Source: Variovorax sp. 770b2
GTDB taxonomy: Bacteria > Pseudomonadota > Gammaproteobacteria > Burkholderiales > Burkholderiaceae_C
DNA: 64,000 nucleotides
Assembly (NCBI RefSeq): GCF_900115685.1
Contig: NZ_FOXJ01000001.1
Coordinates: 3,133,796-3,197,795, forward strand
Direction of reading: 5' to 3'
Shown one piece after another: positions 47,462-63,953 of this stretch (position 1 is its first letter; each line of letters starts with the position of its first letter). A program made the translations under genes and the position numbers. The notes beneath the pieces were generated by a model. The model saw only the letters and a list, made by a program, of their open reading frames with translations. It did no database searches and had not been told where the DNA came from.

Positions 47462-47926
47462 TCAGATGAACAACTGGATCGCCGGCAACGCGCGCGCGGC
47501 GTTGAGCAGGTCGATGCGCTTCTGGCGGATGGCCCAGCCCGAGACGGTGCGCACGAGGTGGTGGCGCGCGGTGCCGCTCAGCAGGATCTGGGATTCGCCG
47601 CGCGCCTCCACATAGAGGAACGGCGTGCGCAGGTGCACCTCGTCGCCCGTCTCGTTCTCGATGCGCGAGGGCTGCAGCACGTGCTGGCTGTGGCTGGCGG
47701 GATGCTGCGAATGCGCGCGCGGGTTCTTCAGGCGATCGACGCGCAGCTGCAGCAGCAGCCGGTCTTCGTAGGCCAGCGAGTTGTGCGAGAACGGATCGGC
47801 CTGCGCGGCGCCGAGCAGCGGCACCCAGTAGTGGCCGTCTTCGGAGAACAGCGCCAGCCAGTCGTCGAAGCGCCGCTCGTCGAGCAGGGCCGCCTCGTGG
47901 GCAATGAAGTCGCGCGGGTCGTTCAT
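47462..47926 (-). CDS. Rieske oxygenase small (beta) subunit, pair 1
   Basis: This 154-residue protein has the aromatic-ring-hydroxylating dioxygenase beta-subunit fold: FIAHEAALLDERRFDDWLALFSEDGHYWVPL near the N-terminus, SLAYEDRLLLQLRVDRL and an end in IQLFI. It has no metal centre itself and stabilises the alpha trimer. The ATGA overlap with the alpha gene shows coupling. It ends with nearly the same residues as the beta subunit of pair 2. Confidence 0.9.
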   Translation of the reverse strand: MNDPRDFIAHEAALLDERRFDDWLALFSEDGHYWVPLLGAAQADPFSHNSLAYEDRLLLQLRVDRLKNPRAHSQHPASHSQHVLQPSRIENETGDEVHLRTPFLYVEARGESQILLSGTARHHLVRTVSGWAIRQKRIDLLNAARALPAIQLFI

Positions 47927-49242
47927 GCCGCGACCTCCGAAGCCATCGCCTTCGCCCAGGCGCGGAACTGGTTGCGCATGAGCAACTCGTTCGTGCCGTT
48001 GGTGGTGATGGTCGATCGCGCGAGCTCGGCCGCGTCGAAGTCGCGGTGCAGGCTCACCCATTCGTTGCCGCCGGCGCGCAGGCCCTGCTGGATGCTCTCG
48101 AACAGGTGCACGTCGTCGTGCGCCACCACCGACATCGGCGAGAACACGAGCCGGTTGTAGCTCATCGCGCGCTCGAACAGCAGCGCGGGCGCGCCGGCTG
48201 CGCGGAAGCTCCAGGCCTCGATCAGCGTGCGGTCGGCCGCCAGCGGACGGATCACGCGGATGGCCTGCGGCGAGCCCTTCACCGACAGGCTCGGATAGAA
48301 GACCGAGTTCTGCGGCGAGCGCTGCAGGATGTCGGCCGCGCGCTCGGCCCCGTGCGCGGCCTGCATCGCGGCTTCGTATTCGGGCAGCTGCGCGTAGCTG
48401 GAATGGATGCTGAAGTTCACGCCCAGCACGCTGTGCCCGTTGGCGAACACCCGCCCACCCATCTTGTCGAAGAACTCGTAGCCCGAGCCGAAGGGCAGGA
48501 TCTGCTCCATCGCCATCGGCTTGGGATCGGTGGGCGCATGGCCTTCCCACAGCGCCTCGGCCGCCTTGGTGGCCGATTCGTGCGCCGACATCGGATGCAC
48601 CGTGTCGTTGATGTTCTCCAGGTACATCTTCCAGTTGCAATGGACGATGTTGCGCAGCACGCCGCCACCCACGGTGAGCTTGCCCTCGGGCGAACGGTCG
48701 ACCATGTTGTCGATGGCGCCGAGCACTTCGCCGAAATAGTCCTCGAACGCAGGGCCGGTGTCGGAGAGCCGCACGAAGACGAAGTCGCGGTAGACCTTCA
48801 CGTGTTTCACCACCGAGAGCCCCTGCCCCGATTCGCAGGCCTTGAGCTGCGTGCCCTCGTAGCCGTTCTTCAGCGGCACGCCGAGCGGCGCGCCGTCGAG
48901 CTTGTAGGTCCACGCGTGGTACGGGCAGCGAAAGAACCGGCCGGTGTTGCCGCTTTCGTCCGTCACCAGCTGCGTGCCCTTGTGGGCGCAGCGGTTGTAC
49001 ATCACGTGCACCGCGCCGTCGGGCTGCCGCACCATCAGGAGCGGTCGGCCCGCGACCTCCTGCGTCACGAAGTCGCCCGCTTCCGGTACCTGGCTCGCAT
49101 GGCCGAGGAAGACCCAGGTGTTCGCGAACAGGCGCTCCTGTTCGAGCGCGAAGATCTCCTCGCTCAGGTACAGGTCGCGGTGCACGCGATCGTCCTGCAC
49201 CAGGGCGGCGATGCGGTCGGGATGATGGCGGTAGCTGGTCAT
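47923..49242 (-). CDS. Rieske oxygenase large (alpha) subunit, pair 1
   Basis: This 439-residue protein has a Rieske [2Fe-2S] centre (RCAHKG...FRCPYHAW, C-x-H and C-x2-H) near residue 85-110 and a mononuclear iron site. The site is in NWKMYLENINDTVHPMSAHES, with the D-x2-H-x4-H arrangement of ring-hydroxylating oxygenases. It inserts oxygen into an aromatic ring with electrons from a reductase. It is paralogous to the alpha subunit at 57770-59083; both start MTSYR. Its substrate is unknown; an indolic acid is proposed from context. Confidence 0.93.
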   Translation of the reverse strand: MTSYRHHPDRIAALVQDDRVHRDLYLSEEIFALEQERLFANTWVFLGHASQVPEAGDFVTQEVAGRPLLMVRQPDGAVHVMYNRCAHKGTQLVTDESGNTGRFFRCPYHAWTYKLDGAPLGVPLKNGYEGTQLKACESGQGLSVVKHVKVYRDFVFVRLSDTGPAFEDYFGEVLGAIDNMVDRSPEGKLTVGGGVLRNIVHCNWKMYLENINDTVHPMSAHESATKAAEALWEGHAPTDPKPMAMEQILPFGSGYEFFDKMGGRVFANGHSVLGVNFSIHSSYAQLPEYEAAMQAAHGAERAADILQRSPQNSVFYPSLSVKGSPQAIRVIRPLAADRTLIEAWSFRAAGAPALLFERAMSYNRLVFSPMSVVAHDDVHLFESIQQGLRAGGNEWVSLHRDFDAAELARSTITTNGTNELLMRNQFRAWAKAMASEVAA

Positions 49243-51672: not shown

Positions 51673-52404
51673 CTAGAGGACCAGGCTGCCGACGCTGGTG
51701 CCGCCGCACACGTAGAGCACCTGGCCGGTAACGAAGCTGTTGTCCGCATCGGCGAAGAAACGCACGGCGCGTGCCACGTCGGCCGATTCGCCCAGGCGCT
51801 TGACGGGCACGGAGGCCGCGAGCGCGCGCTCCTTCTCGCTGCCGGCTTCGACGACGTCGTAGAACATGTCGGTGCGGATCGGTCCCGGCGCCACCACGTT
51901 CACCGTGATGCCGTCGGCGGCCAGTTCCAGAGCCCAGGTGCGCGCCATGCCCAGCATGCCGGCCTTGGTCGCGGAATAGCTGGTGCGGGTCGCAAGACCC
52001 AGTGCGGCGCGCGACGACAGCAGCACCACGCGGCCGAAACGCTGCGCGCGCATGGCGGGCAATGCGCCCTGCACGAGCTGGATCGCGCAGCCCAGGTGCA
52101 AGTCGACCAGCGCATCGAGATCGTCCAGCTTCACCTCGGGCAACAAGGCTGCGCGGATCACGCCGGCGTTGTGCACGATGGTGGTCGGCGCAAAGCGCTC
52201 GACCAGTTCACGCACCGCTTCGCCCGTGGCGGCGCGGTCGCTCAGGTCGACCTCGAGGCTGTGCAGCTTCGGATGGTCGATCTCGGCCTTGCGGCGCGCG
52301 AGCGACACCACCTCGTAGCCTTGCGCGAGCAGGTCCTCGCAGATCGCCTTGCCGATGCCGGCGCTGCCGCCGGTGACGGCCGCGACCTTGGGCACCGTGT
52401 TCAT
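51673..52404 (-). CDS. SDR family oxidoreductase
   Basis: This 243-residue SDR has TGGSAGIG, HNAG and a catalytic SSRAALG...TSYSATKAG with Tyr and Lys present, so it should be active. The start overlaps the cyclase stop by four bases, so the two are coupled. In the proposed pathway it could oxidise or reduce an indolic intermediate (such as the oxidation of dioxindole to isatin); this is inference. Confidence 0.88.
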   Translation of the reverse strand: MNTVPKVAAVTGGSAGIGKAICEDLLAQGYEVVSLARRKAEIDHPKLHSLEVDLSDRAATGEAVRELVERFAPTTIVHNAGVIRAALLPEVKLDDLDALVDLHLGCAIQLVQGALPAMRAQRFGRVVLLSSRAALGLATRTSYSATKAGMLGMARTWALELAADGITVNVVAPGPIRTDMFYDVVEAGSEKERALAASVPVKRLGESADVARAVRFFADADNSFVTGQVLYVCGGTSVGSLVL

Positions 52405-53213
52405 GCCTGCGCTCCCACCAACGCCAGCACACGCAGCGGGCTGCCGCTGCCCTTCTCGATCTTGAGCGGCGGGCAGATCAGCACCGCGCCCGCGGGCGGC
52501 AGCAGGTCGAGATTGCTCAGGCACTGCAACCCGTAGCGCCCGGCGCCGTGCATGTAGTAGTGGCACGGATACGGTGGACGCAGGTGATAGCCCTGCCCCG
52601 CATCGGTGCCGATGGCCTCCGAGCCGAAGCCCAGCACGTCGCGCTGCTCCACCAGGAAGCGCACGGCCTCGGTGCTCGGGCCGGGCGTGTGCTGGCCGGT
52701 TTCGTCGAAGTTTTGATACGCCTCAGGGTCGCTGCGCTTGGACCAGTCGGTGCGCATCAGCACCCACGCGCCCTTCGGGATGCGGCCATGGGCGGCTTCG
52801 TAGCGCTCGATGTCGGCCACGCTCAACAGGTAGTCGTCGTTGCCCTGCACCTCGGCCGAGCAGTCGATCACGCAGGCCGGCGCCACGAAGTTCTGCACGG
52901 GGATGGTGTCCACCGAGTTGTTCGGCAGGTCGCGTCCGGAGATCCAGTGGATCGGTGCGTCGAAGTGCGTGCCCGTGTGCTCGCCGCAGGAGAAGTTGTT
53001 CCAGTACCAGCCCGGGCCACGCTCGTCGTACTTCGACACCTCCTCGATGCGGAAGGGCCAGCACTGGCCCATCTCGGGCGGTAGCGCGATCTGCGGGAAC
53101 TCGGGCGTGAGCGTCTGCGTGAGGTCGATCACGCGGATGCGGCCAGTGGCCATCGCGGTCACCAGGCCACCGAGGATTTCGGCGGCGGACATCGGTTCGG
53201 TGGTTGTCGTCAT
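52401..53213 (-). CDS. Cyclase family metal-dependent hydrolase, isatin-hydrolase-like
   Basis: This 270-residue protein is of the cyclase family, which contains kynurenine formamidase and isatin hydrolase. The metal motif HTGTHFDAPIH (His79, His83, Asp85, His89) is complete. The stretch just before it (GWYWNNFSCGE) is of the type I recall for isatin hydrolases, which open the isatin lactam to isatinate on the way to anthranilate. The start at 53213 has AGGAG upstream. Kynurenine formamidase is the main alternative. Its context among oxygenases and CoA-chemistry genes favours an indole-derived substrate. Confidence 0.82.
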   Translation of the reverse strand: MTTTTEPMSAAEILGGLVTAMATGRIRVIDLTQTLTPEFPQIALPPEMGQCWPFRIEEVSKYDERGPGWYWNNFSCGEHTGTHFDAPIHWISGRDLPNNSVDTIPVQNFVAPACVIDCSAEVQGNDDYLLSVADIERYEAAHGRIPKGAWVLMRTDWSKRSDPEAYQNFDETGQHTPGPSTEAVRFLVEQRDVLGFGSEAIGTDAGQGYHLRPPYPCHYYMHGAGRYGLQCLSNLDLLPPAGAVLICPPLKIEKGSGSPLRVLALVGAQA

Positions 53214-53229: not shown

Positions 53230-54483
53230 TCAGCCGCCTGCGGCCAGTTCGCGTTCGAGCACCTTGGGGTTGTCGCGCCAGCGCTCCAGCCACTCCTGCG
53301 CCACGTCGCCCGGATAGACGTCTTCGACGCCATCGCGCAGCGCCTTCACGATGGCGTTGGCCAACGCCGTGGGCGCCAGCTTGGGCGGCGGCGTGTGCTG
53401 GTTCCATTCGTCGTCGATGGGCCCCGGGAACACGTTGATCACGCGGATGCCGGCCGGCCGCATCTCGGCGCGCAGGCACTGCGCAAGCGAATGCGCCGCC
53501 GCCTTCGAGGCGCTGAAGGTGCCGTGCGGCGGGAAGTTGCTGAGCGCGTAGATCGACAGCAGGTTGACCCACGCCGTCGCGCCCGTCGCGCCATCGGCCG
53601 AGCGGCCCTTGAGCGCGGGGCCGAATTCTTGCGCGAGGCGCAGCAGGCCGAAGTAGTTGATGTCCATCTCGGCCTTGGCCACGTCGGTGCCGCGCCGCGC
53701 GCCGATGCCGAAGGTGCGGTGCACCTCGGCGTTGTTGATCACGATGTCGACCTTGCCGCCGATGGAGCCCGCAAGCTCGGTCACCTGCCGGCCGTTGGTG
53801 AGGTCCAGCGGCACGAGCGTGACCTGCGGCAACGCCGAGATGTCGTCCAGGCCGTCGCCCATCTTCTTCCAGGGCTCGGCGTGGCCGACCCAGACGATGT
53901 CGGCGCCGGCCTTCACCAGCGCACGCACGATGGCCTGGCCGGTCTCGGTCTTGCCGTCGGTCACCAGCGCCTTGCGGAACTTGGGGTCGCTGGTCATTTC
54001 TCGGAGCATCTTGTCGTCGGCCATGTGGGCACTCCCTTCATTCGGAAAACCAATGAGAACGGCCTGGCCCGCGCGGTCGAGCCGGGCGCCGACACGCACT
54101 CGCGTCGGCGCGTCGCCGACTTCACCGTGCAGGTGGACCATGAGCGTCGGGCCGACGTCCAGGTGCACCAGGCCCAGCCGCCAGGGCAGCCGCTCGCGGA
54201 AGAACAGGTCGTTGCTGTGATGCAGCGTGGTGCTGCCGAGCAGTTCGCCTTCGCCGCTCTGCTGGCGCCAGCGCAGCGCAGCAGAAAGGCACTTGTGGCA
54301 GACCTCGCGCGGCGGGTACTGCACGGTGCCGCAGTCCTCGCAGGTCTGCAGTTCGAAGCGGCCTTCTGCGGCGGCGGCCGTGAGGCCGAGCGCCACGCGG
54401 CCGCGCGCGCCGGGCGGCAGGTTCATCTGCCGGGTGCGCAGCACCGGGTTCTTGCGCGGGGGGCGCATCATCGGCATCGTCAT
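53230..54483 (-). CDS. DUF35 OB-fold/zinc-ribbon protein fused to an SDR domain
   Basis: This 417-residue product has an N-terminal DUF35 domain (residues ~15-150): a rubredoxin-like zinc ribbon (Cys48, Cys51, Cys62, Cys65) followed by an OB fold. From residue 154 an SDR domain follows without a stop. In the SDR half the catalytic Tyr of YxxxK is Phe323 (TFSASK; Ser310 and Lys327 remain) and NNAG reads NNAE. The cofactor loop is also unusual (TDGKTETGQ). An internal ATG at 54024, with AAGGGAG before it, could start the SDR alone. DUF35 proteins partner with thiolase-fold enzymes; the adjacent gene encodes one. Confidence 0.85.
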   Translation of the reverse strand: MTMPMMRPPRKNPVLRTRQMNLPPGARGRVALGLTAAAAEGRFELQTCEDCGTVQYPPREVCHKCLSAALRWRQQSGEGELLGSTTLHHSNDLFFRERLPWRLGLVHLDVGPTLMVHLHGEVGDAPTRVRVGARLDRAGQAVLIGFPNEGSAHMADDKMLREMTSDPKFRKALVTDGKTETGQAIVRALVKAGADIVWVGHAEPWKKMGDGLDDISALPQVTLVPLDLTNGRQVTELAGSIGGKVDIVINNAEVHRTFGIGARRGTDVAKAEMDINYFGLLRLAQEFGPALKGRSADGATGATAWVNLLSIYALSNFPPHGTFSASKAAAHSLAQCLRAEMRPAGIRVINVFPGPIDDEWNQHTPPPKLAPTALANAIVKALRDGVEDVYPGDVAQEWLERWRDNPKVLERELAAGG

Positions 54484-55652
54484 GCGGGTCTCCCGAGGAT
54501 GACTGCGCCTGTGCAGAGGCAGCGGTCGTAGGTCACCATGCCGAAGCCGGCGACGAGGCCCAGTTGCGCATCGGGCACCGTGCGCTTGTCGGCTTGATCC
54601 GTCAGTTGGCGGATCGCCTCGACCATGCCGAGGAAGCCGCCCGCCGCACCAGCCTGCCCGGCCGAAAGCTGCCCGCCACTCGTGTTGTTCGGAAAGCTGC
54701 CGTCGAAAGTCATGGTGTGCGATTGCACGAAGGCCGAGCCCTCGCCCTTCTCGCAAAAGCCCAGGTCTTCGAACTGCATCATCACGATGACGGGATAGTC
54801 GTCGTAGGTCTGCACGAAGTCGAGTGCGGTGGGCTGCACGCCGGCCTGCGCATAGAGGTCGTCGCGGTCCTTGCGCCAGCCGCCCTGCACCATCACCGGA
54901 TCGTCGGCATAGGCGTTGTGGCGCTCGATGGCGCCGCGGATCACCACGTGCGCCAGGCCCAGGTCGCGTGCGCGCTCCTCGCTCATCACCAGGAAGGCAT
55001 CGGCGCCGGCGCAGGGCATCACGCAGTCGAAGAGGTGGATCGGGTCCGAGATGGGGCGTGCGGCCATGTACTCGTCCAGCGTGAGCGCCTTCTTGAACAT
55101 CGCGTTCGGGTTGCCGAGCGCGTTGGTGCGCTGGTCCACGCAGATGCGGCCGAAATCTTCGCGCTTCGCGCCGTAGGTGCGCATGTAGTTGGCAGTGATG
55201 AACGCGAAGATCGAGTTCGGCCCGCCCGAGCCGTAGGGGTAGCTCGCATCGCGCGCGAAGTTGCTGAAGCTGCCGAGCGTCTGACGGAAGGAGTCGACAT
55301 GGTTGGTGTCGGCGCCCACGCAGGCCACGATGTCGGCATCGCCCGCCTGCACGGCGCGCGCGGCGCGGCGCAGGCACATCACGCCCGAGGCGCCGCCCGT
55401 GGGCACATGGTCGAGCCAGCGCGGCGAGAGGCCCAGGTGCTGGGTGACGCCCACGGCCGTGTCCGGCGCCAGCGAAAAGCTGCTGAGGCACAGGCCGTCG
55501 ATCTGCTCCTTGGCGACGCCGCTCGCCTGGACCAGCGCCTCGACGGCCTGGCCGATGAACCAGTGGGCGGTGCGCGTGGAGTAGCGCACATAGGGCACCG
55601 TGATGGGCACGGCCACCGCGACGCCTTCGTAGGAAAGTCGGTTGCGGCTCAT
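54480..55652 (-). CDS. Thiolase-fold protein lacking catalytic Cys and His (Ltp2/SCP2-like)
   Basis: This 390-residue protein is a thiolase of the lipid-transfer/SCP2 kind. The nucleophile position that is Cys in CASG reads Gly87 (TGGASG), and the GHP histidine is Gln333 (SAGQAG). The last Cys380 (CLCTG) is kept. This loss is what is seen in Ltp2-type retro-aldolases that cleave acyl-CoA side chains with a DUF35 partner. The neighbouring DUF35 fusion overlaps it by four bases. A retro-aldol role is inferred; ordinary thiolysis seems unlikely. Confidence 0.87.
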   Translation of the reverse strand: MSRNRLSYEGVAVAVPITVPYVRYSTRTAHWFIGQAVEALVQASGVAKEQIDGLCLSSFSLAPDTAVGVTQHLGLSPRWLDHVPTGGASGVMCLRRAARAVQAGDADIVACVGADTNHVDSFRQTLGSFSNFARDASYPYGSGGPNSIFAFITANYMRTYGAKREDFGRICVDQRTNALGNPNAMFKKALTLDEYMAARPISDPIHLFDCVMPCAGADAFLVMSEERARDLGLAHVVIRGAIERHNAYADDPVMVQGGWRKDRDDLYAQAGVQPTALDFVQTYDDYPVIVMMQFEDLGFCEKGEGSAFVQSHTMTFDGSFPNNTSGGQLSAGQAGAAGGFLGMVEAIRQLTDQADKRTVPDAQLGLVAGFGMVTYDRCLCTGAVILGRPA

Positions 55653-57274
55653 GGCTGCCTCTTTTTCATCGCGCGGGTGTCGATGCAATGGCCCTGCCCG
55701 GGCAATGCATGCGCCATCTCGCGGAGTTGCCCGCGCTGGATCTTCTGCGAAGGCGTGAGAGGCAGCGCGTCGACGAAAGCGACGTAGCCGGGCGCCTTGT
55801 AATAAGCGAGTTGGGCCAGCGCATGCTCGACGATGCTCGCGGCGATCTGCGCGCGTTGCGATGCATCGGTGCCTTCTCGCACCACGATGCAAGCGAGCAC
55901 TTCGTCGCCGCGCACTTCGTCGGGCGTGGCGGCCACAGCCGATGTCTTCACGGCCGGGTGCTGGTTGAGCACGCTCTCTACCTCGACGGCCGAGATGTTC
56001 TCGCCGCTGCGGCGGATCACGTTCTTCTTGCGGTCGACAAAAAAGAAGTTGCCCTCGGGGTCGCGCCGCACGAGATCGCCGGTGTGGAACCAGCCGCCGG
56101 ACCAGGCTTCGCGCGTGGCTTCCTCGTCTTTCAGGTAGCCGGAGAAGAAGTAGCGTTCTGGGTCGCCGCCGGTTGACCGAACGAGCAGTTCACCCGTCAA
56201 GTCGACGCCGACGTCGTTGCCGTCCTCGCCCACGAGCCGGAGCTCGACGAACTCTTCCTGCCGCCCGAAGCAGCTCGTGCCCACGAGGCGCGGCTCGCGG
56301 TTGGCCATGATGCAGGCGGCCGCGCCGGTCTCGGTCATGGCCCAGGCCTCCACCAGCGGGAAGCCGAAGCGCTCTTCGAAAGGGGCGTGGTTCTTGCGGT
56401 CCACGCCGGCGCCGAAACCCCAGCGGATCGCATGGTCCTTGTCGGCCGCGGACGCATTGGCCGACAAGAGCATCGCCGGCATCACGCCCAGGTAATGCAC
56501 GATGGTCGCGCCGCTTTCGCGGGCGCTGGCAAGCCAGGTCTTCGGATGAAAGCGGTCCAGCTGCACCAGGCACCCACCCGCCACCAGCACCACCATGGTG
56601 GAGAACGCCATGGCGTTCATGTGGTTCAGGGGCAGCGGCGTGATGACGCGCTCGGTATCGGGGCGGATGCCGCACACGCCGTCGAGCGCTGCGTACCACT
56701 CGCCTGCACGCAGGAAGTAGGCGTTGCTCAGGATGCAGCCCTTGGGGCGCCCGGTGGTGCCCGAGGTGTAGAGGAGGCCGCATTCCGTATCGGCGCCGAT
56801 CGCGTCCCCGGCGCGCGGTGCGGTCGTCTTCGCGCTCGGCACCGCATCGTCGGGCCCCATCGTCTCGAAGGCCACGCCGGCTTGCGCCGCAGCCGCGCGC
56901 AAGTCGGCAGCGCGTTCGGGCAGGGTCACCGCGAGACCGATTTCACTGTGCCCGATGAGGTAGATGAGTTCGGCCGAGCGCATCTCGGCGTTGATCGGTA
57001 CCACGCTCGCGCCCAGGGCGTTGAGTGCGAACCAGTGAAAGAGGAACGCGGGCCGGTTCTCCAGCAGCAGGCCGACGCGATGGCCATGCCCGTAGCCGGC
57101 CTTTGCATAGGCCGCGCGCAGGCGCTCGACCTCGGCTGCAGCCTCGCCCCAGCGAATGGCGCCGGCCGCGATGCCGTAGGCGGCTGCGGTCACCGATTCG
57201 GTGAACAGGAACTCGGCCTGCGGCGTGCGCGCGGCGGTCGCCGCGAAGACTTGATGGACGGTGGAGTCTTGCAT
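55649..57274 (-). CDS. AMP-dependent acyl-CoA synthetase (ligase 2)
   Basis: This 541-residue ANL-family ligase has the P-loop [14 protein letters not shown], an AMTETGA motif and WFHTGDLVRRDPEGNFFFVDRKKNVIRRSGENIS. The expected catalytic lysine is in LTPSQKIQRGQLR near the C-terminus. It forms a CoA thioester from a carboxylic acid and ATP. Its stop overlaps the start of the thiolase-like gene, so its product may be the acyl-CoA that the degenerate thiolase/DUF35 pair cleaves. The gene lies seven bases after the beta gene of oxygenase pair 2. Confidence 0.9.
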   Translation of the reverse strand: MQDSTVHQVFAATAARTPQAEFLFTESVTAAAYGIAAGAIRWGEAAAEVERLRAAYAKAGYGHGHRVGLLLENRPAFLFHWFALNALGASVVPINAEMRSAELIYLIGHSEIGLAVTLPERAADLRAAAAQAGVAFETMGPDDAVPSAKTTAPRAGDAIGADTECGLLYTSGTTGRPKGCILSNAYFLRAGEWYAALDGVCGIRPDTERVITPLPLNHMNAMAFSTMVVLVAGGCLVQLDRFHPKTWLASARESGATIVHYLGVMPAMLLSANASAADKDHAIRWGFGAGVDRKNHAPFEERFGFPLVEAWAMTETGAAACIMANREPRLVGTSCFGRQEEFVELRLVGEDGNDVGVDLTGELLVRSTGGDPERYFFSGYLKDEEATREAWSGGWFHTGDLVRRDPEGNFFFVDRKKNVIRRSGENISAVEVESVLNQHPAVKTSAVAATPDEVRGDEVLACIVVREGTDASQRAQIAASIVEHALAQLAYYKAPGYVAFVDALPLTPSQKIQRGQLREMAHALPGQGHCIDTRAMKKRQP

Positions 57275-57281
57275 CGCGTCC

Positions 57282-57770
57282 TTAGATGAAAAGCTGCACG
57301 GCCGGAAGCGCCGCGTCGCAGTTGAGCAGGTTCACGCGCTTGAGCGTCATGCGCAATGCGCCGCCGTGCACCGTGAGGTGATGAAAGAAGGTGCCGACGT
57401 AGAACTGCAGTTCGTCGCCCTGCGACTCGGTGTAGTGGAAGCCGGTTCGCACCACGAAGCGATTGCCCTCGGCATCGAAGGTCTCGACCACCGGCACCTG
57501 CAGCAGGTGGTGGCAGCGGCTCGGCGGCTGCTGCGAAAACGCGCGCGGGCTCTTCAGGCGCTCGATGCGCAGCTCGCGCAGCAGCTTGTCTTCGTAGAGG
57601 TGCGAGGTGTGGTTCAGGCCGTCTTCCTGGTCGGGCACGAGCGGCACCCAGTAGAAGGCGTCGTCGGTGAAAAGCGCGTTCCATTCTTCGTAGCGGCGCG
57701 TGTCGAGCAGGTGCGCTTCGTTCACCACGAAGTCGATCAGGTCCTGGCGCGTGACTTCGGTGCCGGCCAT
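57282..57770 (-). CDS. Rieske oxygenase small (beta) subunit, pair 2
   Basis: This 162-residue protein has the beta-subunit fold with LIDFVVNEAHLLDTRRYEEWNALFTDDAFYWVPLVP and ends in VQLFI, almost as in pair 1. The start overlaps the last base of the alpha stop (TGATG). It supports the alpha oligomer and contains no metal ligands. Confidence 0.9.
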   Translation of the reverse strand: MAGTEVTRQDLIDFVVNEAHLLDTRRYEEWNALFTDDAFYWVPLVPDQEDGLNHTSHLYEDKLLRELRIERLKSPRAFSQQPPSRCHHLLQVPVVETFDAEGNRFVVRTGFHYTESQGDELQFYVGTFFHHLTVHGGALRMTLKRVNLLNCDAALPAVQLFI

Positions 57771-59083
57771 CACATCGTCTCCGTCATGCGCTCGACCCAG
57801 CTTCGATACTGGTTGCGCATCGGCAACTCGTTGGTGCCGCCGGTGGTGATTTCGCCGCCCTTCAGCTCCGACGGGTCGTAGTCGCGGTGCAGGCTCACCC
57901 ACTCGTTGCCGCTCGCGTGCAGCCCGGCCTGCATGCCGCGATAGGCCTGCAGGTCGTCGTGTCCCACCACCGAGAACGGCGAATTGATGAGCCGGTTGTA
58001 CATGGTCGTGCGCTGCAGCAGCTCGGGCGGGGCGCCCTTCAGGCGAAAGGTCCAGCTCTCGATCAGCGTCTTGTCGGCCGAGATGGGCTTGACCACGCGA
58101 ATCGCCTGGATCGCGCCCTTGATCGTGAGGTTCGGGTAGTACACCGTGTTGTGCCGCGCCATGCCCAGGATCTGCGCGGTCTTCTCTTCGCCGTAGCGCG
58201 CCTTCATCGCGTCGTCGTACTCGGGGATCGCCTTGTACTTGCTGTGGATGCTGAAGTGCACGCCCGTGAAGCTGTGGCCGTGGTCGTAGGTTCGGATGCC
58301 CATGTCCTCGAAGAACTTGTAGTCGGACATGAAAGGCACGAACTGCTCGACCGCCATGGGCTTGGGTTCATCGGCGGGTTTGTCGGCCCACATGCGCTTG
58401 GCGGTGCCGGCGGAGGACTCGTGCGCCACCATCGGGTGCATGGTGTCGTTGAGGTTCTCCACGAACATCTTCCAGTTGCACTGGTGGATGAAGCGCAGGC
58501 ACCCGCCGGCGATTTCCAGTTCGCCCTCGGGCGAGCGGTCGGCCATGTTGTCGATGGAGCTCAGCGAGTCGCCGAAGTACGCCTCGAAGTCGGGGCCCGC
58601 GTCGTTGATCTTCACGAAGATGAAGCCACGGTGGCTGCGCACGTGCTTCAGCGTGGTGAGCCCCTTGGCGGATTCGCATTCGTGCAGCGCGGTGTTCTCG
58701 TAGCCGGTCTTCAGCGGAATCGCCAGCAGCGAGCCGTCTGTCTTGAAAGTCCACGCGTGGTACGGGCAGCGAAAGAACTTGCCGGTGTTGCCGCAGGGCG
58801 CACTCACCAGGCGCGAGCCCTTGTGCGCGCAGCGATTCATCATCGCGCGCACGCTGCCGTCGGTGTGGCGCACGACGATCAGCGGGCGGCCGGCGATCTC
58901 GTTGCTGATCCAGTCGCCGGATTTCGGCAACTGGCTCTCGTGGCCGACGTAATTCCAGGTGTTGGCAAAGAAGTGTTCCTGCTCCAGCTCGAACAGTTCC
59001 TGGCTGGTGTACAGGTCGCGGTGCACGCGGTCGTTCCGCACGAGTGCGCGCACGGCGCCGGGGTTGTCTCGGTACGAGGTCAT
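57770..59083 (-). CDS. Rieske oxygenase large (alpha) subunit, pair 2
   Basis: This 437-residue oxygenase has the Rieske ligands RCAHKG...FRCPYHAW and the mononuclear iron motif in NWKMFVENLNDTMHPMVAHES. It is a paralogue of the alpha subunit at 47923-49242. The start at 59083 was chosen because it begins the conserved MTSYR and follows GAAGGAG; the frame goes 14 codons further. It sits next to the reductase gene, so it is the better candidate for the reductase's direct partner. Confidence 0.93.
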   Translation of the reverse strand: MTSYRDNPGAVRALVRNDRVHRDLYTSQELFELEQEHFFANTWNYVGHESQLPKSGDWISNEIAGRPLIVVRHTDGSVRAMMNRCAHKGSRLVSAPCGNTGKFFRCPYHAWTFKTDGSLLAIPLKTGYENTALHECESAKGLTTLKHVRSHRGFIFVKINDAGPDFEAYFGDSLSSIDNMADRSPEGELEIAGGCLRFIHQCNWKMFVENLNDTMHPMVAHESSAGTAKRMWADKPADEPKPMAVEQFVPFMSDYKFFEDMGIRTYDHGHSFTGVHFSIHSKYKAIPEYDDAMKARYGEEKTAQILGMARHNTVYYPNLTIKGAIQAIRVVKPISADKTLIESWTFRLKGAPPELLQRTTMYNRLINSPFSVVGHDDLQAYRGMQAGLHASGNEWVSLHRDYDPSELKGGEITTGGTNELPMRNQYRSWVERMTETM

Positions 59084-59099: not shown

Positions 59100-60092
59100 T
59101 CAGAGGTCGAGCACCAGGCGCGCACCCTTGGCGCGCGAGATGCAGATCTGCATGACGTTGCCCTCCGCCTTCTCGCGGGCGGTGAGCACGTAGTCGCGGT
59201 GTTCGATCTCGCCTTCGATCACCGGCACGGCGCACACGCCGCATTCGCCGCGCTTGCAGTCGAACATCGGGTCGCAGCCGTTGTCGATGAGGCAGTCCAG
59301 GATGCTCTGGTCGGCCGCGACGGTGAAGCGTTGGCCGGACTGGGCGAGTTCGACCTCGAAGGGCTGGTCGCCCGCTTCGGCGACCGATTCGGTGAAGAGC
59401 TCGAAGTGCACGCGATCGTGCTCCCAACCGCGAGCCTGGGTGCGCGCGAGCACGGCGTCGAGCATGACCTTGGGGCCGCAGACGTAGAGGCGGTCGCCGG
59501 CAGGCACGTCGTCCAGCAGCGCGTCGATGTCGAGCGGCGCGCCGGCCTCTGCGTCGGTGTGCACGCGAAGGTCGTCGCCCAGCAGCGCCTGCAGTTCGGA
59601 CAGGAAAGCCATCAGCTCGCGGCTGCGGCCGGCGTAGTGCATCCGCACCGGTGCCTCTTCGGCGCGACGACGAGCGGCCATGGTGGCGAGCGGCGTGACG
59701 CCGATGCCACCGGCGACCAGCACCGAGCCGCCGGGGCCGGTGTGCAGCGGAAAGTCGTTCTTCGGCGCCTCGATGGCGAGCGTGTCGCCTTCGTTCAGCT
59801 TCTCGTGCATGAAGAGCGAGCCGCCCCGGCCTTCGGCCTCCTTGCGCACGGCGATCACGTATTCCGTGGGCGCGTTGGTGGCGTTGCGTGCCGTGCCGAA
59901 GTTGATCAGCGAGTAGTGGCGCCAATCAGTCTTGCCATCGGGCAGCGTCACCTGAACGCGGATGTGCGCGCCGGCTGCAAAGCCCGGCAGTGGGCGACCG
60001 TCTTCCGCGCGCAGGCGCAGCATGCGGATCAGCGGGTTGAGTTCGCGCGCTTCGGCGACGCGAAGCTGGAGCGTGGCGGTGGGAGCGGTCAT
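59100..60092 (-). CDS. Phthalate-dioxygenase-reductase-type oxidoreductase with C-terminal [2Fe-2S]
   Basis: This 330-residue electron-transfer protein has an N-terminal flavin-binding barrel (RHYSL motif), a middle NAD(P)-binding domain (GGIGVTPLATMA; YVCGPKVMLDAV) and a C-terminal plant-type ferredoxin (CKRGECGVC...). That domain order is that of phthalate dioxygenase reductase. It passes electrons from NADH to the Rieske oxygenases. It is the only reductase in the window and may serve both oxygenase pairs. Confidence 0.92.
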   Translation of the reverse strand: MTAPTATLQLRVAEARELNPLIRMLRLRAEDGRPLPGFAAGAHIRVQVTLPDGKTDWRHYSLINFGTARNATNAPTEYVIAVRKEAEGRGGSLFMHEKLNEGDTLAIEAPKNDFPLHTGPGGSVLVAGGIGVTPLATMAARRRAEEAPVRMHYAGRSRELMAFLSELQALLGDDLRVHTDAEAGAPLDIDALLDDVPAGDRLYVCGPKVMLDAVLARTQARGWEHDRVHFELFTESVAEAGDQPFEVELAQSGQRFTVAADQSILDCLIDNGCDPMFDCKRGECGVCAVPVIEGEIEHRDYVLTAREKAEGNVMQICISRAKGARLVLDL

Positions 60093-60106
60093 CGTGCGTT
60101 GTCTCT

Positions 60107-61612
60107 TCAGGCCAGTGCGTGCTGCACCAGCGCGGCTTGCAGCTTGTGGCCGTGTTCGTCGGCGAGCGCCGCGTCGCGCAGCTCGCGCAACGTGGCGGGT
60201 GCGAGCTGCGCGCCGGCGCGCTCGACCGCGCGCATCACGGTGTCGTAGTTGCGGATGCCGCGCTCGTGCGTGTCGCTGTAGCCTTTGACCAGGCGCTGGC
60301 ACTGCGCCAGCTCGACGGCCAGTTCGGGGTTGCGCTGCGCGGTGGCGGCGATGCGCTGCAGCCATTCCTCGATGCGACGGTTTTCTTCGGCGTAGCGCAT
60401 CGTCGAGCGACGCCAGCGCTTCATGGCGGCGACGGTGCGCAGCATCAGGTAGCCGCGCAGCGAACTGGTCTGGATCACGCGGCCGTGCTGGGTGAAGCGC
60501 TCGACGATCTTCTTCGGCAGCCTGGAGCCCATGAGCCAGCGGCCGATGCCGCCCGGCAGCGTCTCGCAGATTTCCTGCAGGCGCGGGTGCATGTATTCGT
60601 TGATGGCGAGCACCTGGCCCGGCTGCACGCGGGCCTCGCCACGCACGCGCTCGAAGCGGGTGGCGCGGGTCTTGAGGGCCGCGACGCGCGCGGTGTCTTC
60701 GTAGGACATCCAGAGCGCGAGGTGGCGGGCTGTTTCGCGCAGCAGGCGGTGGTCTTCGTCGCCCGGCAGCGCGGCGGCGGCGACGCGATCGATGTACAGG
60801 CCGGCGTAGGCAATGTCCTGGTAGTCGATGAGGCGACGCACGCCCTCGAGCAGGAAGTCTTGCGCGGCGAGGGGAAAGTCGTGCTGCACGCGCTCGACAA
60901 GCGCACGCACGGCCGGATGACGCGGCTGCGGGGCCGCTGTGGCGGCCACCGTTTCCGGCGGGGTCTCGCCGTCGTCGCCGCCCAGGGCGCGCGCGAATGC
61001 CGCGCCGAAAGCCTTGAGGCTCGGCTTCACGCCGACGCCGCCGCGTTCGATGGTCGCTTCGAACTGCGCGCGGCTGAACGGCAGCACGCCCGAGCCCGCC
61101 AGCGCACCGAACAAGACTGCGCTGATCACGCTGCCCGAAGCTTCGGCCGCCTTCTCCATGTCGAAACGGATGAAACGCTTGGCCGCCTTGGCCGTGTGCG
61201 CGAGCAACTGGGCGCTGTCGACGCGGCCGTCACCGAGCGCGCTCTTTTCCGCAATGGAGAACACGCGGTGCGTGGAGGCGATGAGCGTGGTTCGATCGTT
61301 CGTGACGAGCCCACGCTGTACGGCGCGGCCAGCTTCCATGAGTTCCGATGCGAGCACCACGTCGACGTCGCCGGGCAACGGCATCAGCGCCAGCACCGGC
61401 CGCCCGCCGTCCGCATCGGCTTGCGCGATCGGGTACAGCTCGACGTAGTAGATGGTCGCGCCGGTGCGCTGCGCCACGCCCGGCACCGAGGTGGTCTGGG
61501 CGACGTAGCCGTTGGCTTCGCCCATGTCGACGATCCAGTCGGCCAGCACGCCGCCGCCCTCACCACCCATGGCGAGGATCGCGATCTTGATGGGTTGCGC
61601 CTTGTTCGTCAT
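60107..61612 (-). CDS. iorB: Indolepyruvate ferredoxin oxidoreductase beta subunit with DUF6537-like extension
   Basis: This 501-residue protein has an N-terminal pyruvate:ferredoxin oxidoreductase gamma-type domain (ILAMGGEGGGVLADWI, residues ~10-190) followed by a helix-rich ~300-residue extension as in the long IorB forms of betaproteobacteria. With IorA it oxidatively decarboxylates aryl-pyruvates to aryl-acetyl-CoA, reducing ferredoxin. The start at 61612 lies four bases after the iorA stop. The substrate in this cluster could be indolepyruvate or another aromatic 2-oxo acid. Confidence 0.88.
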   Translation of the reverse strand: MTNKAQPIKIAILAMGGEGGGVLADWIVDMGEANGYVAQTTSVPGVAQRTGATIYYVELYPIAQADADGGRPVLALMPLPGDVDVVLASELMEAGRAVQRGLVTNDRTTLIASTHRVFSIAEKSALGDGRVDSAQLLAHTAKAAKRFIRFDMEKAAEASGSVISAVLFGALAGSGVLPFSRAQFEATIERGGVGVKPSLKAFGAAFARALGGDDGETPPETVAATAAPQPRHPAVRALVERVQHDFPLAAQDFLLEGVRRLIDYQDIAYAGLYIDRVAAAALPGDEDHRLLRETARHLALWMSYEDTARVAALKTRATRFERVRGEARVQPGQVLAINEYMHPRLQEICETLPGGIGRWLMGSRLPKKIVERFTQHGRVIQTSSLRGYLMLRTVAAMKRWRRSTMRYAEENRRIEEWLQRIAATAQRNPELAVELAQCQRLVKGYSDTHERGIRNYDTVMRAVERAGAQLAPATLRELRDAALADEHGHKLQAALVQHALA

Positions 61613-61616
61613 CGCT

Positions 61617-63809
61617 TCAGAACGCATAGGTTTCGCGGCGGCGCGCTTCGCCACGTTGCAGCCAGCCGATGACGGCGCTGCGCACGCGCTCGCGCAGCAC
61701 ATCCCAGCGACTCGGGTTGCTCACGATCTGCGCCTTGTAGAACGAGGGGCACAGCACCGCGGCGTGCGAGACCTCGCCGCACACGCCGCAGCCCACGCAG
61801 CTGTCGAGCACGGTCGCGACCGGGTCGGTGCGCAGCGGATCGGGGTTGGGCTTGATCGACAGCGACGGGCAGCCCGACAAGCGGATGCACGAGTGATCGC
61901 CGGTGCAGGTGTCGGAATCGACGCCGAATTTTTCGCGCACCATGCGCTTGCCATCGGCGATGGCCTTGCGCACCAGCGGCTTCTCGCGGCGCTGCTTGTT
62001 GAGCATGCACTCCGACTGCGCGATCAGGACCTTGGGCCCCTTCTTCGTCGTGGTGAGCGCTTCTTTCAGCGCATCGCGCATGCCAGCCACGTCGTAGGTG
62101 CGGCGCAGCGTCTTCACCCACTCGACGCCCACGCCGCGCACGGCGCGCTCGATTTCGTGGCCGGTGCTGCGCGTCTTGTTGACGGCGTTCGACGAGAGGA
62201 TGTCCTGCCCGCCCGTGGCCGAGGTGTAGTTGTTGTCGACGACGATGGTGAGGTTGTCGCTCTTGTTGAAGACCGAATTCGCCACGCCGCTGGTGAGGCC
62301 GTTGTGCCAGAAACCGCCGTCGCCCATCATCGAGATCGCACGCTTGCCGGCCGGTGCATTGAGTGCCGAGGCCCCCGCCCCGCCGAGGCCGTAGCCCATG
62401 GTGGTGTTGCCGATGTTGAAGGGCGGCAGGATCGAGAACAGGTGGCAGCCGATGTCGGCGCTCACGTGGTGCGCGCCGAGTTCGCGCTCGACCAGTTTCA
62501 TGGCGCTGAAGATCGGGCGCTCGGGGCAGCCGGTGCAAAAGCCCGGCGGACGGGCATGCACCACGTCGCCGAGCGCGGAAGACGGCACGACCGGCTCGGG
62601 CGCGGCGTCCACGCCGATGGCGGCCACTTCCCTGAGCGGGATCACCTTGCGCACCGGCACAGGTACGGGCAGCGGTGCGAGGCGCTCGTAGCGCTCGCAG
62701 AAGGTGCGTGCGCCCTTGAGCAATTCGGACGATGTGTATTCGCCGGCGACGGGCAGCATGTCCTTGCCGTGCAGCGCGGTCGTCGAGCCGGCCTGGCGCA
62801 GGATGGTCGCCAGGTTCTGCTCGACGAAGTTGGGCTGGCCTTCTTCCACGATCATCACCGCGCGCTTGCCTTCGCAAAAGCGGATGACTTCGCTCTCGAT
62901 GACGGGATAGGCCACGTTCATCACGTAGAGCGGGACCTTGGTGTTGCCGTACACGTCGGCCAGGTCGAGCCGCTCCAGCGCGCGCAGCAGCGTGTTGTAG
63001 CTGCTGCCCTGCACGATGATGCCGATGTCGTCGGCGTCTTCGGAGAAGAACTCGTTGAGCTGGCGCTCCTCGATGAAGCGCACCGCGGCGGGCCAGCGGT
63101 CCTTCACCTTCTCCTGTTCGTGCACGAAGCTCGCGGGCGGCAGCACGATGCGGCTGACGTCGCGCTGCGGGTTCTCCAGCGCTTCCTGCAGCGTGAACTT
63201 CGCGCGCTTGTTGTCGCCGGCGATGAAGTGGCCGTGCACGTGGCAGGCGCGGATGCGCAGCTGCAGCATCACGGGCGTGTTGCTGGCCTCGGAGAGATCG
63301 AAGCCCGTCTTCACCGCATCGACGATGCTGGGCAGGTTGGGCCGCGGATCGAGCAGCCAGATCTGCGACTTCATCGCGAACGCATGGCTGCGCTCCTGCA
63401 TGATCGACGAGCCTTCGCCGTAGTCCTCGCCCACGATGATGAGCGCGCCGCCGGTCACGCCGCCCGAGGCGAGGTTGGCCAGTGCGTCCGACGCGACGTT
63501 GGTCCCCACGGTCGCCTTGAAGGTGACGGCGCCGCGCAGCGGGTAGTTGACCGAGGCCGCGAGCGTGGCGGCGGCGGTGGCTTCGCTCGCGCTGTTCTCG
63601 AAGCGGATGCCCTGCTCGGCAAGGATGTCCTGCGCATCGGCCAGCACGTCCATCAGGTGCGAGATGGGTGCGCCCTGGTACCCAGCCACATAGGAAACTC
63701 CCGATTCGAGCAAGGCCTTGGTGACCGCCAGAATGCCTTCACCGCGAAATACCTCGCCATCCGAAAGCCGCAGCTTCTTGACTTCTTCGACGAACGAACG
63801 CTCAGCCAT
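61617..63809 (-). CDS. iorA: Indolepyruvate ferredoxin oxidoreductase alpha subunit
   Basis: This 730-residue thiamine-diphosphate enzyme has an N-terminal pyrimidine-binding part (VSYVAGYQGAPISHLMD), a central TPP/Mg region (MMGDGGFWHNGLTSGVANS) and C-terminal ferredoxin-type cysteines (CTGDHSC..., SCVGCGVCGE) for [4Fe-4S] clusters. It converts aryl-pyruvate plus CoA to aryl-acetyl-CoA with IorB. It is the first gene of the operon in the direction of transcription. The ATG at 63809 has AAGGA upstream; the frame runs on 29 codons but lacks similar support. Confidence 0.9.
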   Translation of the reverse strand: MAERSFVEEVKKLRLSDGEVFRGEGILAVTKALLESGVSYVAGYQGAPISHLMDVLADAQDILAEQGIRFENSASEATAAATLAASVNYPLRGAVTFKATVGTNVASDALANLASGGVTGGALIIVGEDYGEGSSIMQERSHAFAMKSQIWLLDPRPNLPSIVDAVKTGFDLSEASNTPVMLQLRIRACHVHGHFIAGDNKRAKFTLQEALENPQRDVSRIVLPPASFVHEQEKVKDRWPAAVRFIEERQLNEFFSEDADDIGIIVQGSSYNTLLRALERLDLADVYGNTKVPLYVMNVAYPVIESEVIRFCEGKRAVMIVEEGQPNFVEQNLATILRQAGSTTALHGKDMLPVAGEYTSSELLKGARTFCERYERLAPLPVPVPVRKVIPLREVAAIGVDAAPEPVVPSSALGDVVHARPPGFCTGCPERPIFSAMKLVERELGAHHVSADIGCHLFSILPPFNIGNTTMGYGLGGAGASALNAPAGKRAISMMGDGGFWHNGLTSGVANSVFNKSDNLTIVVDNNYTSATGGQDILSSNAVNKTRSTGHEIERAVRGVGVEWVKTLRRTYDVAGMRDALKEALTTTKKGPKVLIAQSECMLNKQRREKPLVRKAIADGKRMVREKFGVDSDTCTGDHSCIRLSGCPSLSIKPNPDPLRTDPVATVLDSCVGCGVCGEVSHAAVLCPSFYKAQIVSNPSRWDVLRERVRSAVIGWLQRGEARRRETYAF

Positions 63810-63953
63810 GTGGGTCCTTCTTCTTTCTCGTGGGAGGATGCGCTTCAGGTGCCACATCACGCTTTCTATAATGTTGACAAATGAATGTATCCACAATCAT
63901 GAATTACCCTAGACATGCAAGCAGTGTGCCCGCAGCAACCGTGAGGCACCTTC
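63810..63953. promoter_or_regulatory. Divergent promoter region between iorA and the right-edge gene
   Basis: A perfect TATAAT at 63867-63872 and a perfect TTGACA at 63874-63879 on the plus strand point away from the operon. On the minus strand a TATAGA-type -10 lies in the same spot. The AT-rich core (63860-63905) stands out from the GC-rich surroundings and is the likely control region of the large catabolic operon and of the plus-strand gene that follows. Confidence 0.55.

Follow-up and report, generated by a model that had tools for sequence, protein, structure and literature searches.

The window analyzed here, a 64,000-nucleotide stretch of the Variovorax sp. 770b2 genome, contains the iad auxin-degradation operon, and the thiolase-like protein of this operon is IadG. 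IadG is very likely a thiolase-fold retro-aldolase of the Sal/Ltp2 branch that acts on a coenzyme A (CoA) ester, with dioxindole-3-acetyl-CoA as its proposed substrate and isatin and acetyl-CoA as its proposed products. We infer this reaction, the catalytic roles of individual residues and a complex of IadG with its neighbor IadH from active-site residues, their conservation, the predicted fold, a phylogenetic tree and gene context. A broader reading, which we consider probable and hold less firmly, is that IadG–IadH is a thiolase-fold aldolase from outside steroid metabolism, with a catalytic pair of its own (Tyr283 and Asp285 of a YDDY motif) and a DUF35 partner joined to a dead dehydrogenase scaffold, and that it serves as the C–C cleaving enzyme of iad; its sister proteins with a YDDF motif would then be further undescribed CoA-ester aldolases.

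The iadG gene is an open frame of 390 residues on the minus strand, at exactly 54480–55652, recognized from its frame, Pfam and phmmer matches, fold model and position in the tree. An earlier note on this DNA had the frame exactly, but it is to be read on the minus strand. A plus-strand frame is also open over this G+C-rich stretch; all homologies used here are those of the minus-strand protein. Of the Ltp2-like aldolase proposed in that note, the Sal/Ltp2 branch stands, but IadG lies nearer to Sal than to Ltp2 by score, model and tree. The cleavage it suggested gains support from the kinship with CtSal, the nature of the downstream hydrolase IadI, a formula balance and the C10H9NO4 seen on iadG knockout.

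Active-site residues of IadG

The active site was read from an alignment of 18 rows comprising IadG, its relatives, CtSal, TcLtp2, BbsB (7PXP), the Pyrococcus thiolase 7YVY and four canonical thiolases of the same genome (L145–L148, four of the eight found with TIGR01930). Gly87 (55392–55394) stands at the position of the thiolase nucleophilic Cys and Gln333 at that of the His of GHPxG; both replacements, already called from the sequence in the earlier note, hold against the four same-genome thiolases, BbsB and 7YVY and recur in 87/87 orthologs. A third replacement places Tyr283 at the His/Asn of the thiolase HDxF/NEAF motif. The Cys of CxG aligns near Val367, and IadG has no Cys there. IadG therefore lacks all three thiolase residues, namely the nucleophile, the His of GHPxG and the Cys of CxG. 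Cys380 (54513–54515), which had been taken for a conserved residue of the thiolase fold, is distinct from the CxG cysteine. It belongs to a short insertion that no other of the 18 rows shares with IadG and its YDDF relatives. Four of the 87 orthologs have Ala in its place and two of four plasmid-borne homologues have Ser; judged by position and variability, Cys380 is irrelevant to thiolase chemistry in IadG.

The 87 orthologs (85 distinct sequences) are the best 80 of 585 relatives, from named genomes, one sequence from the genus of the window and six from other classes with 60–65% identity; the four plasmid-borne homologues were picked from 15 listed of 312 matching records. Gly87, Tyr283, Asp284, Asp285, Tyr286, Gln328 and Gln333 are kept in every one of these 87 and four sequences. 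Invariance alone is weak evidence, because 111 of the 390 IadG columns are invariant in the 87 orthologs. In a more distant set of 28 distinct relatives from the fetched loci, Gly at position 87 is common to all 28, and Gln at 333 is found in eight, namely the YDCY and YDDF groups. Listed as motif, residue 87 and residue 333, the set comprises YDAF/G/H (11), YDSF/G/H (5), YDDF/G/Q (4), YDCY/G/Q (4), YDCF/G/H (3) and YAPC/G/H (1). The glycine therefore does not single out aldolases whose function is known.

The nearest known system is CtSal, the bile-acid side-chain aldolase of Comamonas testosteroni that works with the DUF35 protein CtShy (9MYR, PMC12329534). In an alignment with 9MYR, with positions counted by hand, Gly87 corresponds to CtSal Gly89, Tyr283 to Tyr302, Asp285 to Cys304 and Tyr286 to Tyr305 (the YDDY motif, residues 283–286, at 54795–54806), and Gln328 and Gln333 to Gln347 and Gln352 (54654–54671). 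CtSal and IadG thus share the Gly in place of the nucleophilic Cys, the catalytic Tyr of YDxY and both active-site Gln. In the parts of PMC12329534 drawn on here, Tyr302 is proposed to act as the base of CtSal and Cys304 as its acid, both being required for activity, and the Gly that replaces the thiolase Cys is said to exclude thiolysis. IadG has neither the acid residue of Sal (Cys304) nor that of Ltp2 (Tyr344 with His296), and carries Asp285 and Gln333 instead, which makes it a third variant of the aldolase branch. TcLtp2 differs accordingly, with YDHF and Tyr344 where IadG has YDDY and Gln333.

Predicted fold, similarity and phylogeny

A phmmer search of the PDB with IadG returned CtSal first (9MYR, E 5.6e-52), the putative thiolase 4U4E second and TcLtp2 third (6OK1, E 4.5e-40). 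An AlphaFold model built on a 31-sequence alignment has a mean confidence (pLDDT) of 81.6 and a pTM of 0.88, with pLDDT below 50 at residues 1–3, 118–120, 123–143 and 202–209. It is nearest to 9MYR (Z 45.5, root mean square deviation 2.7, 372 residues aligned), followed by 6OK1 (Z 43.0, deviation 2.8, 365 aligned), which is level with 4U4E (42.9) and TbSLP (42.7); classical biosynthetic thiolases reach Z of about 32 to 33. Foldseek with the same model likewise ranked 9MYR first and 6OK1 second. A tree of 52 rows, midpoint rooted and with five references of solved structure, gathers IadG into one group (support 100/100) with the YDDF proteins as its sister (98/96) and joins IadG, YDDF and Sal in one clade (99/98). 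Ltp2 falls outside this clade on a long branch and its placement is unsure; both thiolase rows are also long and four rows are of unusual composition. The sequence scores, the model and the tree all make the DUF35-partnered steroid aldolase CtSal the nearest characterized relative of IadG.

The kinship extends to the system as a whole. CtSal has the thiolase fold of IadG, a DUF35 zinc-ribbon/OB partner encoded next door, and a reaction that releases acetyl-CoA from a β-hydroxyacyl-CoA, as proposed for IadG. It differs in its substrate, a steroid where that of IadG would be an oxindole, in Cys304 and Gln161 against Asp285 and Pro145, and in overall sequence (30.8% identity over 373 aligned residues). 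TcLtp2 with its DUF35 partner ChsH2, an aldolase of the C3 steroid side chain, shares the fold, the type of partner and the Tyr base and lies outside the Sal–IadG clade. Ltp2 splits a tertiary alcohol into a ketone and an acyl-CoA, which is the closest chemical parallel to the step proposed here. The benzoylsuccinyl-CoA thiolase BbsAB (7PXP) resembles IadG–IadH in having a thiolase fold, a DUF35 partner and a role in aromatic catabolism. However, BbsAB performs thiolysis and retains the thiolase Cys and His, both of which IadG lacks.

IadH as the DUF35 partner

The neighboring iadH gene (53230–54483, minus strand) encodes a fusion of a DUF35 region (residues ~36–136), with a ChsH2-type zinc ribbon and an OB fold (PF12172, PF01796), to a short-chain dehydrogenase/reductase (SDR) fold (~165–417). 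The DUF35 assignment comes from Pfam and from sequence matches to chain B of 6OK1 and of 9MYR; the first 50 matches listed in a fold search with the whole IadH model contain SDR structures, and one domain can fill such a list. In line with the earlier suggestion of coupling to a CoA ligase and a DUF35 fusion, iadG overlaps both neighbors by 4 nucleotides, its start with the iadF stop and its stop with the iadH start.

The two halves of IadH have fared differently. Zinc cysteines 48, 51, 62 and 65 are present in 87/87 rows and in all four plasmid-borne homologues. In the SDR half the window has TDGKTETG and FSASK in place of the classical TGxxxGxG and YxxxK; at the catalytic Tyr position 71 of the 87 rows have Phe, 13 retain Tyr, two have His and one has Ala, and 80 rows retain the Lys. 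The four plasmid-borne copies are more eroded, three having lost the Tyr and all four the Lys, with a degraded glycine motif. What selection preserves is thus the DUF35 half. The SDR half is probably a catalytically dead scaffold, and an active (alcohol) dehydrogenase is doubtful given the degenerate Tyr, Lys and glycine motifs. The closest solved SDR to this half, 5U4S, has LSASK, with Leu for the catalytic Tyr, and was nonetheless solved with NADP; nucleotide binding by IadH is therefore possible. 5U4S also hints at a broader family of SDRs that lack the Tyr.

That IadG and IadH form a complex is suggested by analogy. In the Shy–Sal system the DUF35 domain was found to bind the aldolase by co-purification (PMC11321319, in the part drawn on here). 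In the steroid systems DUF35 is fused to a MaoC domain, which in Shy is a hydratase that makes the β-hydroxyl; in IadH the fusion partner is an SDR fold, and in the iad pathway the hydroxyl comes from oxygenase steps. The zinc finger also differs, being C-x2-C-x10-C-x2-C in IadH and Cys3His in CtShy.

Isatin as the proposed product

The gene order of the window fits iadC-D-E-F-G-H-I-J of Variovorax paradoxus CL14 (from gene numbers in PMC10374108), as do the published roles (PMC12633357), which identifies the locus as iad. The latter source, a preprint of October 2025 drawn on here in part, describes deletion of the iad genes, with iadCDE removed together. In strains lacking iadF, iadG, iadH or iadI, C10H9NO4 went up and anthranilate went down, and iadF to iadJ were all needed. 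The IadG of CL14 occupies the same operon position; the preprint ties it to side-chain removal and names it a ketothiolase by annotation. The compound accumulated by the iadG knockout has the formula of dioxindole-3-acetate, in agreement with our proposal.

The product can be approached from the next enzyme. IadI (52401–53213, minus strand) matches isatin hydrolases (5NMP, E 8.5e-111, 373 bits). The preprint annotates it as a kynurenine formamidase, a candidate we rejected as a far poorer match, since IadI scores 25.6 bits with the arylformamidase model, whose cut-off is 223. Three signature motifs of isatin hydrolases, HxG[T/A]HxDxPxH, GLQC (or GLAS) and an aromatic WxW/F, were defined in PMC6117287, in which LaIHA and RsIHA were assayed on isatin and LaIHA was crystallized. 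All three are found in IadI, as HTGTHFDAPIH, GLQC and WYW at positions 79, 228 and 69, and its identity is 61.7% to LaIHA and 63.9% to RsIHA. A plasmid of Roseibium aggregatum, which we take to be the former Labrenzia aggregata, carries a divergent MarR gene followed by reductase, Rieske alpha, Rieske beta, AMP-binding, thiolase family, SDR, cyclase and SDR genes, that is, the order C-D-E-F-G-H-I-J. The IadI of this operon is 96% identical to LaIHA (5NNA) over 254 residues. Sulfitobacter indolifex has the same order, with a cyclase 79% identical to LaIHA. If IadI is an isatin hydrolase, as the near identity of the Roseibium copy to an assayed enzyme implies, the C–C cleaving enzyme upstream of it should deliver isatin.

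The formulas agree with this. Dioxindole-3-acetate (C10H9NO4) less C2H4O2 gives isatin (C8H5NO2) with no redox step; isatin plus water gives C8H7NO3, and loss of CO2 from this gives C7H7NO. Both C8H7NO3 and C7H7NO were seen in PMC12633357, where deuterated indole-3-acetic acid ([2H7]IAA) also lost one deuterium at C10H9NO4. This loss would fit dioxindole-3-acetate, through the deuterium at C2, better than a ring-opened isomer. Isatin and isatinic acid have been detected in cultures (PMC9613470).

Proposed mechanism

We propose that IadCDE and IadJ convert indole-3-acetate to dioxindole-3-acetate, which IadF would activate to dioxindole-3-acetyl-CoA (3-hydroxy-oxindole-3-acetyl-CoA). As a tertiary β-hydroxyacyl-CoA this ester cannot be oxidized to a β-keto ester, and hence cannot undergo thiolysis. 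IadG, docked on the DUF35 half of IadH, would instead break the C3–CH2 bond to yield isatin and acetyl-CoA, the SDR half acting as a probable dead scaffold, and IadI would then convert isatin to isatinate en route to anthranilate. In the active site Tyr283 would remove the proton of the C3 hydroxyl while the backbone amide of Gly87 holds that oxygen, and Asp285, at the position of Cys304 in Sal, would protonate the acetyl-CoA enolate. By analogy with CtSal we give these roles of Tyr283 and Asp285 a moderately better than even chance.

Alternative explanations

Several points weigh against a retro-aldol role. The activity of IadG is a prediction, and neither fold nor identity is free of ambiguity: DUF35/SCP2-type thiolases come near Ltp2 in fold (7YVY Z 42.0, 6ET9 41.9, BbsB 41.3), and percent identities are no help in telling the two kinds apart (CtSal 30.8, TcLtp2 30.9, 4U4E 31.8, 7YVY 30.6, BbsB 25.9). 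As only 9MYR stands clear of the others, the fold by itself cannot distinguish an aldolase from a thiolase; the active-site residues can. The oxyanion residue Gln161 of CtSal is Pro145 in IadG (Pro in 83/87 orthologs, Ala in four), and the CtSal variants C304A, C304S and C304H have no measurable activity, in a table that does not extend to an Asp variant (PMC12329534, as excerpted). On the metabolite side, C10H9NO4 is equally the formula of 2-formamidobenzoylacetate, so the formula alone is no proof of the substrate. The iadI knockout accumulates C8H7NO2, the formula of dioxindole, rather than isatin, and the parts of PMC12633357 used here do not report that isatin was detected. Because C8H7NO2 differs from isatin by two added hydrogens, dioxindole in the absence of IadI may be reduced overflow.

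On the annotation in the preprint, IadG would be a normal 3-ketoacyl-CoA thiolase and would split off the acetyl unit through thiolysis. Its Thiolase_C_1 score of 118.8 bits is well above the cut-off of 28, with Thiolase_N at 20.8 bits below its own of 26.4, 14 of the 15 plasmid homologues listed are labeled 'thiolase family protein', and some thiolases are close to the model in fold. Yet all 22 NCBIfam families listed fall below their cut-offs (TIGR01930 29 bits against 240.55), and the nucleophilic Cys, GHPxG His and CxG Cys are absent, the first two being replaced in 87/87 orthologs. The substrate, moreover, is a tertiary alcohol that has no β-keto group. Residues and the quaternary carbon of the substrate together lead us to reject this explanation as very improbable.

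A reductive route, in which IadG/IadH releases dioxindole because the SDR half of IadH reduces isatin, with IadI acting on dioxindole, would account for the C8H7NO2 that accumulates both in the iadI knockout and in a strain expressing iadCDEFGH_JK2 (PMC12633357), and it recalls an older scheme for B. japonicum running from dioxindole to isatin (quoted in the part of PMC8383072 drawn on here). Its first half is identical to our proposal. We consider its second half, and so the route, unlikely: the SDR Tyr of IadH is Phe in most rows and the plasmid-borne copies are more eroded still, IadI carries the isatin hydrolase signature and its Roseibium counterpart is nearly identical to an assayed enzyme, and the dioxindole could come from backed-up isatin through other reductases. 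Opening of the ring before cleavage has the least to recommend it and seems to us extremely improbable. C10H9NO4 would then be 2-formamidobenzoylacetate, which by hand count has the same formula, and IadG would split 2-aminobenzoylacetyl-CoA to give anthraniloyl-CoA; a route of this kind was once postulated for B. japonicum (also quoted in PMC8383072). It requires a thiolase, however, and IadG lacks thiolase residues. The loss of one deuterium would point to dioxindole-3-acetate, and the isatin and isatinic acid found in cultures and the isatin hydrolase in the operon also speak against it.

No paper describing IadG as an aldolase appeared among the literature matches listed, in which subscription journals are thinly covered. 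A word search of the main text of PMC12633357 returned no instance of 'aldol', and the parts of it drawn on here make no mention of a DUF35 partner for IadG. The earlier note knew of no described enzyme for this step, but the preprint had already assigned it to IadG as a ketothiolase.

Significance

Through iad, Variovorax removes auxin and rescues root growth, and the locus is being moved into other root bacteria to promote plant growth (PMC12633357, as excerpted). By homology, some other plant-associated bacteria also remove auxin by this route. The side-chain step is explained in the preprint only by an annotation that the residues of IadG contradict. Were IadG an aldolase, no reductant would be required to balance the step, whose products would be isatin and acetyl-CoA, and iadG in an engineered cassette would be expected to depend on its partner iadH. 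IadG would also extend Sal/Ltp2 chemistry from steroids to a hormone with a heteroaromatic ring, using another catalytic residue, and could be useful for biocatalysis on tertiary alcohols.

Operon structure and gene neighborhood in relatives

All genes of the operon lie on the minus strand, in the order IorA-like, IorB-like, reductase, Rieske alpha, Rieske beta, CoA ligase, iadG, DUF35–SDR, cyclase-family hydrolase and SDR. The reductase gene iadC lies at 59100–60128 (start approximate), and the Rieske oxygenase alpha and beta subunits are encoded by iadD (57770–59083) and iadE (57282–57839). The AMP-forming CoA ligase gene iadF (55649–57274), assigned from sequence, context and the knockout in PMC12633357, encodes the proposed maker of dioxindole-3-acetyl-CoA. 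At the far end, iadJ (51673–52404) encodes an SDR with intact TGGSAGIG and YSATK motifs, the dehydrogenase giving C10H9NO4 in PMC12633357. Genes for putative solute-binding proteins, recognized from their translations, lie beyond iadJ. A second Rieske pair at 47462–49242, with an alpha subunit 57% identical to IadD and a beta subunit 46% identical to IadE, is flanked by genes that read like solute-binding proteins.

Matches to IadG at or below 1e-20 were found in 70 of 398 genomes, and eight of these, including the window's own, have a match of at least 60% identity. Among the best 80 of 585 relatives, all 19 rows with at least 92% identity are named Variovorax. These 80 loci were also used for synteny, each count covering the loci long enough to show the neighbor in question (L and G numbers are our handles for loci and genomes). 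The fused iadH follows iadG in 79/79 loci and iadI follows in 73 of 76; no iadI was found in L062 and L067, and in L063 it is not adjacent. A CoA ligase homologue is present in 77/77 loci, 12 of them with a distant one (32–37% identity). By an automatic test, an iadF of at least 40% identity adjoins iadG in 48 of the 77. In 15 of the 29 misses a ligase abuts the iadG match, and the miss arises from an iadG frame predicted with too early a start; the others are L046 and L064, where the two are hundreds of bases apart, 11 loci with a 33–37% identical ligase upstream and not always adjacent, and L079, where a 32% identical ligase lies farther away. That a ligase is retained even where its type is swapped is in keeping with a requirement for the CoA ester.

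G, fused H and I lie side by side in all six distant orthologs. Two of these genomes (G392 and G265, alphaproteobacteria-like) have F-G-H-I and no close IadD (best 32–34% identity), and the genes adjoin peptide-type transporters. One of the two also has a second ligase and a flavin enzyme, presumably of aminobenzoyl-CoA monooxygenase/reductase architecture. These loci would fit a module leading from dioxindole-3-acetate to anthranilate. Four fetched stretches hold iadG-H-I with no iadCDE alongside: L118 (G392), L121 (G265), L151 (Shinella) and L152 (Agrobacterium pusense). Opp-type transporters occur in L118 and L121, and a gene of the aspartate/glutamate racemase family in L118 and L152. Such loci may serve the use of already oxidized auxin or its conjugates.

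Genes for an IorA/IorB-like thiamine-diphosphate oxidoreductase are present in the window (60107–63896) and at L079:3972–7924. They adjoin iadG-H-I even in Castellaniella, where iadCDE was not found in the fetched stretch. The enzyme is a candidate for turning isatinate, which is an aryl glyoxylate, into anthranilate or the corresponding CoA ester.

The YDDF sister group of IadG is represented at L124:7872–14097 (G193), L125, L126 and L135. In L124 the YDDF gene has an enoyl-CoA hydratase gene on one side and a gene for a DUF35 OB-fold protein on the other, with genes for a CoA ligase and two acyl-CoA dehydrogenases next in line, an arrangement that resembles a β-oxidation module ending in an aldolase. 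The genome of the window carries a YDDF paralog of its own, at L135:13095–14279. In the same genome, G000:C4:800000–853000 (L135, L136) holds four more thiolase-like genes within ~50 kb, some with DUF35 matches beside them, and is possibly a further CoA-ester degradation cluster.

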